This document shows, one piece after another, positions 34,936 through 38,333 of a DNA stretch of 64,000 nucleotides. The notes beneath the pieces were generated by a model. The model did not search any database and had not been told where the DNA came from. It saw only the letters and a list, made by a program, of their open reading frames with translations. The stretch is from Nocardioides alpinus (GTDB lineage Bacteria > Actinomycetota > Actinomycetes > Propionibacteriales > Nocardioidaceae), in NCBI RefSeq assembly GCF_900112035.1, contig NZ_FOKC01000013.1, forward strand, positions 1 to 64,000, read 5' to 3'. Numbering within the stretch: the first letter of the stretch is position 1; every line of letters begins with the position of its first letter. The translations under genes and the position numbers were made by a program.

Positions 34936-35475
34936 GTGCCGCCCATCGACGACTCGACGCGTCCCCGCGTGGCGGGCTCGGTCGACCTGACACCGCGGCA
35001 GCGCCTCGCCGGTGACCACCTGCGGATGATCCACGACCACTTCCGCCAGCAGCTCGCCCAGCTCACGAGCGCCGTCGTCGAGCTGCGGGACGGCACGGGC
35101 GACGTCGGGGTCGTGCGCGAGAGCCTGCACCAGCTGGCGCCGGCGCTCACCGCGCAGCAGGTCTCCGGGCTGTGCCACCAGGTCTGCCGGTTCCTCACGA
35201 TGCACCACACCATCGAGGACCAGAGCATGTTCCCGGCAGTGGCGACGCTGGAGGAGTACGCGCCGGTGGCGACGCGGCTGGCAGAGGAGCACGTCGTCAT
35301 CCACGCCCACCTCGAACGTGTCGACGAGCTCGCCCTGGCCGTACGCACGGACTCCTCGCGGGTCGTCGAGCTGGTCACTGCCGTCGCAGAACTGCGTCGC
35401 GACCTCGAGTCGCACTTCTCCTACGAGGAGACCGAGATGACCGAGCCGCTCGGGCTGCTGGGACTCGGCATCTGA
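34936..35475 (+). CDS. Hemerythrin-like (HHE) cation-binding protein
   Basis: A 179-residue helical protein starting at GTG. The di-iron ligand pattern appears as MIHDHF, MHHTIEDQSMFP, EEHVVIHAHL and ESHFSYEETEM, consistent with a four-helix hemerythrin domain. Possible roles are oxygen or nitric-oxide sensing, or iron handling. It is monocistronic after the terminator and precedes the popR operator. Confidence 0.8.
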   Translation: MPPIDDSTRPRVAGSVDLTPRQRLAGDHLRMIHDHFRQQLAQLTSAVVELRDGTGDVGVVRESLHQLAPALTAQQVSGLCHQVCRFLTMHHTIEDQSMFPAVATLEEYAPVATRLAEEHVVIHAHLERVDELALAVRTDSSRVVELVTAVAELRRDLESHFSYEETEMTEPLGLLGLGI

Positions 35476-35541: not shown

Positions 35542-35841
35542 ATGGGCGAGATCCTGCGGTTCCCCGGACGTGACCACCCGGCCCCGGCGAGTGCACCCGA
35601 GCCGCTCTGGCGCGAGCTGGTGGGCCGGGAGCTGCACCTCGAGCGCACCCGACGCGGCGAGCGCCTCGTCGACGTCGCGGAGCGGGCCGGGGTCTCGATG
35701 CAGTACCTCTCGGAGGTGGAGCGCGGACTCAAGGACCCCTCCTCGGAGATGCTCCACGCGATCGCCGGGTCACTGGACCTGACGGTCCGCGAGCTCGCCG
35801 GGCGCGTCAACGCGTACGACGCTCTGTGCCTCGCGGCCTGA
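35542..35841 (+). CDS. popR: PopR/ClgR-type XRE regulator of clpP
   Basis: 99 residues with an HTH (RLVDVAERAGVSMQYLSEVE) characteristic of the ClgR/PopR group. The C-terminus ends in CLAA. In Streptomyces lividans PopR, the C-terminal alanines expose the activator to ClpP degradation and give feedback. The gene converges on two clpP genes with 1 nt between the stop codons. Operator-like sites precede both units. The gene symbol is inferred from context and motif. Confidence 0.75.
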   Translation: MGEILRFPGRDHPAPASAPEPLWRELVGRELHLERTRRGERLVDVAERAGVSMQYLSEVERGLKDPSSEMLHAIAGSLDLTVRELAGRVNAYDALCLAA

Positions 35842-35842
35842 G

Positions 35843-36445
35843 TCAGCCGAACGCGCGGCCCTGCTCGGTGTAGACGGTGTCCACGATCCCGTAGTCGACG
35901 GCCTCGGAGCCCGACAGGACGAGGGTGCGGTCGGTGTCCTGACGTACCTGCTCGCTCGAGCGACCCGTGTGCCGGGCCAGGATCTCCTCGAGCTGCAGGC
36001 GGACCCGCGCGACCTCGTCGGCCTCGAGGATGAGGTCCGGGATGGTGCCCCGACCCTGGGTCGCGGGCTGGTGGAGGACGACCCGGCCGTGCGGCAGGAT
36101 CGCGCGGCTCCCCGGCGCTCCACCCGCGAGCAGCACGGCGGCGGTCCAGGCGGCCTGGCCCACGCAGACCGTCTCGACGGCGGGACGGACGAACTGCATG
36201 GCGTCGTACACCGCGAGCATGGCCGAGATCGAGCCGCCGGGTGAGTTGATGTAGAGACTGATGGGGAGCTCGGAGTTCTCCGAGGACAGGTGGAGCAGCT
36301 GGGCGATGACGGCGTTGGCGACACCGTCGTCGATCTCGGTGCCGAGGTAGATGATCCGCTCGGACAGGAGCCGGGAGTAGAGGTCGAGGGTGCGCTCGCC
36401 CCGCGGCGTCTGCTGGACGACGTACGGGATCGTGTAGCTGCTCAT
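35843..36445 (-). CDS. ClpP-like subunit with Ser-to-Trp catalytic substitution
   Basis: A 200-residue ClpP-family protein with [15 protein letters not shown] and the His motif [11 protein letters not shown]. At the nucleophile position the sequence is [12 protein letters not shown], where active ClpP has GxAAS. The Ser is replaced by Trp (TGG codon on the minus strand), so this subunit should be unable to cleave peptides. The gene is otherwise intact and overlaps the upstream clpP gene by 4 nt. It is probably the second, structural or regulatory ring of a PopR-controlled ClpP heterocomplex. Confidence 0.85.
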
Positions 36446-37050
36446 CGCACACCTGCCAGGCCGATGCTGTGCTGCCGACCGGGGGTGACGTGGTCGACGG
36501 TGCTGATCAGCTGGTCGACGAAGCCGTAGTCGAGCGCCTGCTCCGCGCTGAACCACCGGTCGCGACGCGAGTCGCGCTCGACGGTGTCGCGGTCCTGACC
36601 GGTGTGCTGCGAGATCAGCCCGAGGACGGTGTCGCGGGTGTGCCGCAGGTCGTCGGCCTGGATCTCGATGTCCACCGCCGTTCCGCCGATGCCGGCCGAG
36701 CCCTGGTGGAGAAGCACGCGGGAGTGGGGCAGCGCGTACCTCTTCCCGGGCGTGCCGGCGGACAGCAGGAACTGCCCCGCGCTCGCGGCCATCCCCATCG
36801 CCACGGTGGTGACGTCGTTGGGGATCAGTCGCATCACGTCGTGGATCGCCAGCATCGCCGACACGGAGCCACCCGGAGAGTTGATCCAGAGGCTGATGTC
36901 GGCGCGCGGGTCCTCGGCGGAGAGCAGCAGCAGCTGGTGCATCAGCCGGTTGCCGTTGCCCTCCCGCAGCTCCTCGCCCAGCACGATGATGCGGTCGTGC
37001 ATCAGGCGTCGGACGAGCTCGTCCTCGATGCGTTCGGAAGTCGTGGTCAT
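36442..37050 (-). CDS. clpP: ClpP protease proteolytic subunit (clpP3-type)
   Basis: 202 residues with an intact catalytic site: Ser in [11 protein letters not shown], His in [10 protein letters not shown] and Asp in the [19 protein letters not shown] region. [11 protein letters not shown] forms the oxyanion-side loop. It is the first gene of a two-gene clpP operon with a PopR-like site upstream, parallel to clpP3-clpP4 of Streptomyces. It would assemble with ClpX or ClpC ATPases. Confidence 0.88.
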
Positions 37051-37090: not shown

Positions 37091-37107
37091 TTCTGCCGAC
37101 CGCGGAA
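37091..37107. promoter_or_regulatory. Putative PopR site upstream of the clpP pair
   Basis: TTCTGCC-GAC-CGCGGAA keeps the left half of the PopR consensus and five of seven bases of the right half. It lies about 40 bp upstream of the clpP start (gene on the minus strand). Confidence 0.5.
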
Positions 37108-37138
37108 CCGCCCGGAGCGGAGCGGGTCCGCGGCCGGC

Positions 37139-38158
37139 TCAGTACCCCTCGATCCGCATGACCGCTCCCGAGAACGTGACGACGTACGCCACTCCGTCGA
37201 CGAGCTCGAGCGACGTGGGCCGATCGAGGCGCCCCACCACGGTGCGGAAGGTGCCGTCCGGCTGGACGACGACGATCTCGCCCGTCCTCGGCTTGGCCGG
37301 GAACCCTTCGTTCGCATCGGTCGGCTCCAGGTTCCAGTAGCCCTGCAGCAGCCCGTAGAGCTGGCCCTGGTCGTGCTCGACATCCAGGACCAGGCCACGG
37401 TTGCCTGCGTAGTCCCGGCCCCACCTGCCGATGACCTTCACCGATCCGTCGGGTCGCACCCAGTTGACCTTGGAGGTGGACGGGACGTGCGGGATCGGCC
37501 CCGCCGTCGAGAGGTAGACCTTGCCGCCGGCCACCTCGAGCCCGAGGGGGACCCGGTCGGTGCTGCCGAACCCCACCAGCTCGCGGATCCGCCCCGTGGG
37601 ACCGACGCGGATCACTCGCGCCAGGTGCGCATCAGTGACGAGGAAGCCCTGGCGCCACACCTGCATCGAGTAGTGGACGCCCTGCGAGACAAACCAGTCG
37701 GGGTCCTTGGGCGGGTGATTCGTCGACCAGGTGCCCAGGTCGGCGAACACGGCGAACCTGCCGTTGCCCTTGAGGCGGTAGATCCCCATGACGTCGTCGG
37801 GGCCTCCGACGGAGGCCCCCGCCACACTGACCAGCACGTACGCCCGGTCACCGAGGAAGGCGACGTCCATCGCAGCACCGATGTCGATGAACCTGGGTGG
37901 CAGGCCCCGGCCGACCACCTTCGCCGCGCCCGTCGTCGGATCGATCCGGATGAGCGTGCCCTTGATCCCGTTGGTGACGTAGACGGCGCCGTCGGGTCCG
38001 ATCGCGCTCCCTGACCCGTAGCCGCTGAGGGCTGCGTCGTTGAGCACGGTGACGGCCGGAGCCGTCCTTGCTGGAGCCTGGGCCTGCACATGGAGGCCCG
38101 GCAGCACGAATGCGATCGCCATCGTTGTGGCGAGCGCGGTGAATCCACGACGCGTCAT
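37139..38158 (-). CDS. ScyD/ScyE-type secreted beta-propeller protein
   Basis: 339 residues from the ATG at 38158, with a twin-Arg-like start (MTRRGFTALATT) and a Sec-type hydrophobic core ending in VQAQA. Propeller-like repeats include GSAIGPDGAVYVTN, LIRIDPTTGAAKVV and VLDVEHDQGQLYGLLQG. The pattern matches the ScyD/ScyE family, named in cyanobacteria for scytonemin clusters but widespread and functionally unknown in actinobacteria. The gene is single, between clpP and the agmatinase. Confidence 0.7.
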   Translation of the reverse strand: MTRRGFTALATTMAIAFVLPGLHVQAQAPARTAPAVTVLNDAALSGYGSGSAIGPDGAVYVTNGIKGTLIRIDPTTGAAKVVGRGLPPRFIDIGAAMDVAFLGDRAYVLVSVAGASVGGPDDVMGIYRLKGNGRFAVFADLGTWSTNHPPKDPDWFVSQGVHYSMQVWRQGFLVTDAHLARVIRVGPTGRIRELVGFGSTDRVPLGLEVAGGKVYLSTAGPIPHVPSTSKVNWVRPDGSVKVIGRWGRDYAGNRGLVLDVEHDQGQLYGLLQGYWNLEPTDANEGFPAKPRTGEIVVVQPDGTFRTVVGRLDRPTSLELVDGVAYVVTFSGAVMRIEGY

Positions 38159-38333
38159 GATCACTCCGCCTGTCATCCGCGGCCGAGTGGCTGTCGCGCG
38201 CCCGGTCGAATCGTCCGCCCCGACCGTCTTTCGATGTTGCTCCCGCACCTCTGCCCCGTCAAGGGCGAGCACGCGGGCCCGTCCACTGGTCTGGACGGCT
38301 GGTCTCCCGGGCTCCCGGGCGGAACGGCCGCGA

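Follow-up and report, generated by a model that had tools for sequence, protein, structure and literature searches.

A 64,000-nucleotide stretch of Nocardioides alpinus DNA, referred to here in its entirety as the window, carries two adjacent clpP genes, and the second of these encodes a tryptophan where a ClpP peptidase has its nucleophilic serine. The locus raises the question of whether the second gene is simply a damaged copy or whether an inert subunit has been maintained next to an active one, and, if it has, what such a subunit could contribute to a Clp protease.

An intact ClpP subunit is paired with one that has lost two catalytic residues

The genes and regulatory elements of the locus are as follows.

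36442 to 37050, minus strand: first (ClpP1/ClpP3-type) subunit, here called the partner, with an intact triad, Ser90-His115-Asp164
35843 to 36445, minus strand: second (ClpP2/ClpP4-type) subunit, 200 amino acids, with a dead active site
36442 to 36445, minus strand: 4-nucleotide ATGA overlap of the two clpP genes
35542 to 35841, plus strand: PopR-like XRE regulator, 99 amino acids, with the C terminus LAA, downstream of the pair and convergent with it
37092 to 37121, minus strand: tandem PopR-box-like palindromes upstream of the partner gene, with 0 mismatches to a degenerate pattern described below

The N. alpinus genome has four ClpP proteins, one pair on contig C16 and one pair on contig C7, and the accessory pair is separate from the housekeeping pair. 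The gene that follows the housekeeping ClpP1P2 pair is, as recognized by eye, presumably clpX. A gene for a hemerythrin HHE-domain protein (PF01814; positions 34936 to 35475) directly adjoins popR. Directly upstream of the operon, on the operon strand, is a gene for a ScyD/ScyE-like protein (37139 to 38272; 68 bits with NF033206, below the cut-off of 80), and the short gap between this gene and the operon holds the PopR box.

The active-site positions are as follows.

36781 to 36783, minus strand: Ser90, catalytic codon AGC of the partner
36146 to 36148, minus strand: Trp100, codon TGG, at the nucleophile position of the second subunit
36071 to 36073, minus strand: His125, the sole triad residue left in the second subunit
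35924 to 35926, minus strand: Thr174, at the catalytic Asp position of the second subunit by alignment to 6hwm

A preliminary description of this DNA had called attention to a ClpP paralogue with Trp in place of the catalytic Ser, and the open reading frame, coordinates, strand, and 11-residue motif of this protein are all as it gave them. An active partner was said to lie directly upstream, and the gene found there has the nucleophile motif GMAAS and a complete Ser-His-Asp triad, from which its product is predicted to be an active peptidase. The same description held that the rest of the second subunit is well preserved. The reading frame is indeed intact and His125 is kept, but the catalytic Asp has also been replaced: Thr174 sits in the sequence QDTDRT and aligns with the D of DTDRD in the Thermus ClpP 6hwm, which fixes the Asp column. 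With Trp100-His125-Thr174 in the place of a triad, the second subunit does not have the residues of an active peptidase, and since two of the three are gone and His125 alone is left, the statement on preservation is not fully right. The observation of a Trp-bearing ClpP is confirmed, and it was understated.

The second subunit belongs to the ClpP family (218.9 bits with PF00574, against a cut-off of 20.2) and also scores above the cut-offs of the generic ClpP models NF001368 and NF009205. Models above cut-off label the dead subunit "ATP-dependent Clp protease proteolytic subunit," and because they give it the name of a protease subunit, annotation hides dead subunits of this kind. The second subunit scores 164.1 bits with NF009204, which we take to be the cyanobacterial ClpR model, against a cut-off of 263, and membership of the ClpR lineage is rejected on this score. 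In the wider sense of a noncatalytic ClpP paralogue, the comparison with ClpR applies, as the triad has been lost. An AlphaFold2 prediction for the second subunit (53 aligned sequences) has a mean pLDDT of 87.3, with blocks near residue 100 at 96 to 97. The top Foldseek matches of this predicted structure are ClpP chains, the first of which is a chain of the Mycobacterium tuberculosis ClpP1P2 entry 6iw7 (TM 0.91).

The gene for the inert subunit is maintained

A single base separates a Ser codon (TCG) from the Trp codon (TGG), so a sequencing error or a decaying pseudogene could in principle account for the residue. However, the homologues do not all keep Ser; there are 36 distinct Trp homologues, including those of Nocardioides currus, N. 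cavernae, and N. islandensis, and the codon is TGG in 36 of 36, which excludes a sequencing error. The reading frame is open, and the median omega among the 28 closest Trp proteins is 0.115; that of the active partner is 0.130, and each value is based on 378 pairs. The third-position tree length over the 36 Trp proteins is 13.6 substitutions per site, and over that length the TGG codon is unchanged. Based on the codon, the open frame, and omega, error and pseudogene are refuted and we give them a negligible probability. The gene for the dead second subunit is maintained and is under strong purifying selection.

The active site varies in second subunits and is invariant in their partners

Accessory pairs were collected by genus, order, and class searches and by a scan of named genomes. 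The 341 loci obtained represent 276 distinct second subunits, with identity judged over residues 6 to 180 of the match. Four entries (L001 to L004), which are overlapping copies of the window pair and the housekeeping pair of its own genome, were left out; two sets of 20 loci were picked by hand for spread, and 16 of the 38 listed matches of family f3 were taken in. Because the loci were picked as the best matches to the window protein, sampling is biased toward its relatives and the proportions are not class-wide frequencies.

The nucleophile position of the 276 second subunits is occupied by Ser in 124, Ala in 66, Gly in 38, Trp in 36, Glu in 7, Phe in 4, and Asp in 1. The full Ser-His-Asp triad is present in 94 and has been lost in 182. 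Trp is one of several replacements of the nucleophile, alongside Ala, Gly, Phe, Glu, and Asp. The Phe type comes from Arthrobacter, Paenarthrobacter, and one further genome, and the Gly type from Agromyces, Gordonia, Williamsia, Leifsonia, and others. The catalytic His is replaced by Gly, Asp, Gln, or Glu, and the catalytic Asp by Thr, Asn, Glu, and others. The His is retained in 141 of the 152 second subunits with a dead nucleophile, which simple decay does not explain.

The partner has a full triad in 275 of 275 cases and lies upstream on the same strand at all 275 loci. The one locus that shows no partner, L318, has its match at base 78 of the contig. The housekeeping pairs used as a control (50 loci, 48 distinct) keep a full triad in 48 of 48 ClpP2 proteins, in contrast to the 94 of 276 accessory second subunits, and the adjacent ClpP1 proteins have Ser-His-Asp in 46 and Ser-His-Glu, with Glu for Asp, in 2 of 48.

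The residue next to the lost nucleophile, Thr101 (window positions 36143 to 36145), is invariant in the Trp proteins (36 of 36) and in the Phe proteins (4 of 4). One reading of this is that the nucleophile has shifted to Thr101 and that the second subunit is still a peptidase. This we consider highly improbable: the catalytic Asp has mostly been lost from the Trp proteins as well (their Asp column is Thr in 28, Ser in 1, and Asp in 7 of 36), many of the Gly-type proteins in Agromyces and Gordonia have Pro directly after the nucleophile position, and Thr is also common at this position beside an intact Ser.

Second subunits of the Streptomyces group retain Ser but have Gly for the catalytic His at 6 of 6 survey loci (L326 to L331); L331 has a match to a Streptomyces fungicidicus record (88.2% over 81%). 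An additional sample of 30 Streptomyces-group proteins (L430 to L459), best matches that share at least one genome with the first six, has Gly for His in 30 of 30. Given this Gly in every Streptomyces-group ClpP4 examined, the textbook back-up protease ClpP3P4 itself looks like a pair with one blade.

The number of changes at the active site was estimated on a FastTree tree of the 276 proteins and 11 housekeeping outgroups, from which the triad columns had been removed. A minimum of 10 changes is needed on this tree to account for Ser and non-Ser, and 13 to account for intact and broken triads; when loss is treated as irreversible, 27 losses are required. The corresponding numbers on a second, careful tree, built from 98 rows, are 10 and 11. 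Some Ser proteins are nested among Ala or Gly relatives (L210 with L205, L246 with L253, and L282 with L277, as well as L243 and L170), so that either the losses are very recent or Ser has been regained. For this reason our claim is limited to at least 10 changes and is not one of 27 losses, and the nucleophile site of the second subunit may be subject to drift or to regain of Ser.

Trp arises in two changes on the tree, and a single Trp clade is not rejected (AU test, P = 0.36). It is conceivable that Trp is a selected plug that fills the active-site cleft and either fixes the conformation of the ring or bars peptides or ClpP poisons. The constancy of TGG over 13.6 substitutions per site, while Ser, Ala, and Gly interchange elsewhere, speaks for this, as do a second bulky residue, Phe, in 4 of 4 Arthrobacter-type proteins and the invariant Thr101 adjoining the bulky residue in both sets. 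However, with so few origins of Trp, the constancy may reflect descent together with the small number of tolerated one-base neighbors. We regard the plug as a tentative and rather unlikely addition to the explanation that we prefer, which is set out below.

Within Nocardioides, 134 of 215 genomes have an orthologue at an E value of 2.3e-70 or better, a threshold beyond which remoter pairs may occur elsewhere (e.g., in genome G052, which has four ClpP matches). Of the nucleophiles in the 134 genomes, 63 are Ser, 32 Trp, 28 Ala, and 11 Gly. The clpP3P4-popR cassette is thus patchy in this genus, and the gene tree (L005 to L345) mixes genera. Relatives of the second subunit with 60 to 63% identity are found on plasmid records of Prescottella equi, Tsukamurella, and Embleya. 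Patchiness, the mixed-genus tree, and plasmid-borne relatives together suggest horizontal exchange.

The inert subunit keeps the docking aromatics and the cutting subunit has lost one of them

In Streptomyces, Clp ATPases bind the pocket of ClpP2 (S94, Y96, and Y116) and not that of ClpP1 (PMC9765437). The corresponding aromatics of the second subunit in the window are as follows.

36251 to 36253, minus strand: Tyr65, docking-pocket aromatic, Tyr in 276 of 276 homologues
36191 to 36193, minus strand: Phe85, docking-pocket aromatic, Phe or Tyr in 250 of 276 homologues

The pocket of the window partner is Ser53-Trp55-Leu75, in which the third aromatic has been lost. Among the 275 partners, the third position is aromatic in 3 and has lost its aromatic in 272 (Leu in 216, Ala in 25, Met in 13, and others in the remainder), whereas 252 retain Trp, Tyr, or Phe in the middle position. 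Both positions are aromatic in 1 of 275, so that nearly every sampled partner pocket is incomplete. The partner resembles in spacing and residue type, with Leu in the third position, the ClpP1 patch of M. tuberculosis (S61, Y63, and L83), which belongs to the nondocking ring and can be altered without an effect on growth (PMC9067928).

The blunted subunit has kept its docking aromatics and the cutting subunit has lost one. This argument from the pocket is partial, since the middle residue of the partner is mostly aromatic and just the third has been lost. In addition, the third aromatic is present in 47 of 48 housekeeping ClpP1 proteins, yet Streptomyces ClpP1 docks no ATPases, so aromatics by themselves do not prove docking.

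Loss of the third aromatic as a universal rule for partners was rejected by family f20, which was sampled on purpose (30 distinct proteins, best matches only). In this family, 23 of 30 partners (L400 to L422) keep the third aromatic; of these 23, 18 have lost the middle aromatic and 5 keep both. All 30 of the f20 second subunits have Ser, and 26 of the 30 have a complete triad; in one f20 partner the Asp column is unaligned. As the residues stand, this one family fits an order in which loss of the nucleophile follows a fuller loss of the partner pocket.

In chloroplast Clp proteases, P and R subunits mix within one ring. A second subunit of this ClpR type would share a ring with the active subunit as a filler, lowering the density of catalytic sites, and would have no docking ring of its own. 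A core with catalytic P and noncatalytic R subunits is on record for chloroplasts (PMC6508832), and the 4-nucleotide overlap, which is identical at 207 of 275 loci, suggests similar dosage of the two subunits, although this fits separate rings equally well. However, the docking aromatics are complete on one subunit only, which separate rings explain more easily, and the NF009204 score is below its cut-off. The nearest solved fold is also from M. tuberculosis ClpP1P2, whose rings are homoheptamers (PMC9067928). Taken together, these observations make a filler a decidedly unlikely description of the second subunit.

A PopR-like regulator and a tandem box accompany the operon

PopR of Streptomyces is an activator of clpP3P4 and a target of degradation by ClpP1P2 (PMC12607617, PMC9765437). 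The regulator in the window has as its best named match the ClgR model NF041677, at 58.6 bits and below the cut-off of 170, and it ends in LAA and so has the two C-terminal alanines of the PopR/ClgR type. In PMC9775585, a pair of alanines at the C terminus is presented as a degradation signal in connection with ClgR and Lon. A popR-like gene is present at 244 of 276 loci, where it is downstream and convergent in 241, and 215 of the 244 proteins end in AA.

The PopR box published for Streptomyces lividans (PMC9775585), with up to 8 mismatches allowed, is found in 209 of 274 upstream regions, compared with none of the 274 shuffled and none of the 274 coding sequences. A degenerate form with up to 3 mismatches is found in 214 of 274 upstream regions and, again, in no sequence of either control set (274 each). 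Since this pattern was written after the upstream consensus and the published box had been viewed, the published box is the sole independent test. No degenerate box is found at 60 of 274 loci, among which are all 6 of the Glu-type loci. The box in the window is a tandem one and has 6 mismatches to the published letters. A search of the window alone, with up to 3 mismatches, found the box in one place on both strands, a result that does not exceed chance, as 21 of 100 shuffles match as often, so the case for the box rests on its place and its conservation.

Proposed function of the pair

Based on these observations, we consider it likely that the two genes encode a PopR-controlled ClpP3P4 back-up protease in which the first subunit would cut and the second would dock the ATPase in a mixed double ring. 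The residues, their conservation, the selection on the gene, the gene order, the regulator, and the box are observed here. The mixed ring, the division of labor, and the regulation in N. alpinus are put forward by analogy with Streptomyces and with the ClpP1P2 of Mycobacterium. In outline, the two genes would be the accessory ClpP3P4 core of actinobacteria. When housekeeping ClpP1P2 fails, PopR would no longer be degraded and would bind the tandem box, and the operon would be turned on. The two subunits would presumably form a mixed tetradecamer, in whose double ring cutting would fall to the first subunit and the second would provide the docking surface for the Clp ATPase. With cutting left to the first subunit and docking to the second, the active site of the second would have decayed repeatedly, whereas selection would have held its fold and its docking aromatics in place. 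The repeated blunting of the second subunit in relatives points to retention of this half as a platform for docking.

The preliminary description had interpreted the pair as a ClpP/ClpR-like heterocomplex under PopR control. This is partly supported: a dead subunit beside an active partner under PopR control is well supported by the comparison of loci, the heterocomplex is presumptive, and ClpR holds as an analogy but not as kinship, given the 164.1 bits against 263. In outline the interpretation holds, but the asymmetric ClpP1P2 core offers a closer parallel than the ClpR lineage does.

Comparison with known systems

The idea of a dead docking ring is already in print. According to d'Andrea et al. 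2022 (PMC9067928), the Ser of M. tuberculosis ClpP2 is dispensable in culture, and a "forced asymmetry" strain, in which both the ClpP1 pocket and the ClpP2 Ser are mutated, grows. Streptomyces ClpP2 S131A has full activity, and it is ClpP2, not ClpP1, that docks the ATPases (Reinhardt et al. 2022, PMC9765437). The accessory pair would resemble these ClpP1P2 proteases as an asymmetric core in which ClpP1 cuts, ClpP2 docks, and the Ser of ClpP2 is dispensable (PMC9067928, PMC9765437). Actinobacterial ClpP3P4 may be a natural forced-asymmetry Clp protease, with docking and cutting divided between its two rings by opposite erosion of the pocket in the partner and of the triad in the second subunit, and a Trp plug in the Nocardioides lineage would then have been selected for a new role in the docking ring, for example as a lock on conformation or a shield from natural products that target ClpP; we think this fuller proposal unlikely.

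Alleles of ClpP that lack predicted catalytic residues have been noted, one each, in Streptomyces coelicolor, Nocardia asteroides, and Leptospira interrogans, where they were likened to ClpR (PMC9067928). These are the same phenomenon, although the available part of that report describes neither a case of Trp nor a survey and does not deal with recurrence, invariance of the partner, or a comparison of pockets. In the open-license PMC literature, we found no report of Trp at the ClpP nucleophile, nor of recurrence with an invariant partner or of the split of pocket and triad. These three features are what is new here. Arguments on what the second ring does in two-ClpP systems have so far drawn on engineered mutants. 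The accessory pairs are natural versions of the mutant experiment in several lineages, always in the second subunit and with the active partner untouched at every locus examined. They make the division of labor directly testable and provide a system in which one ring would be permanently inert.

By profile, the second subunit is of another lineage than cyanobacterial and plastid ClpR (below the cut-off of NF009204, the presumed ClpR model). The two are alike as noncatalytic ClpP paralogues, and the second subunit would, like ClpR, be part of a mixed core (PMC6508832). A close likeness is to ClpP3-ClpP4 of Streptomyces (Viala and Mazodier; PMC9775585, PMC9765437, PMC12607617), which has the same two-gene ClpP operon, PopR activator, and tandem palindromic box. 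There, too, the second subunit is catalytically compromised, although by a different route: the Streptomyces protein has kept Ser and lost His, whereas the window protein has kept His and lost both Ser, which became Trp, and Asp.
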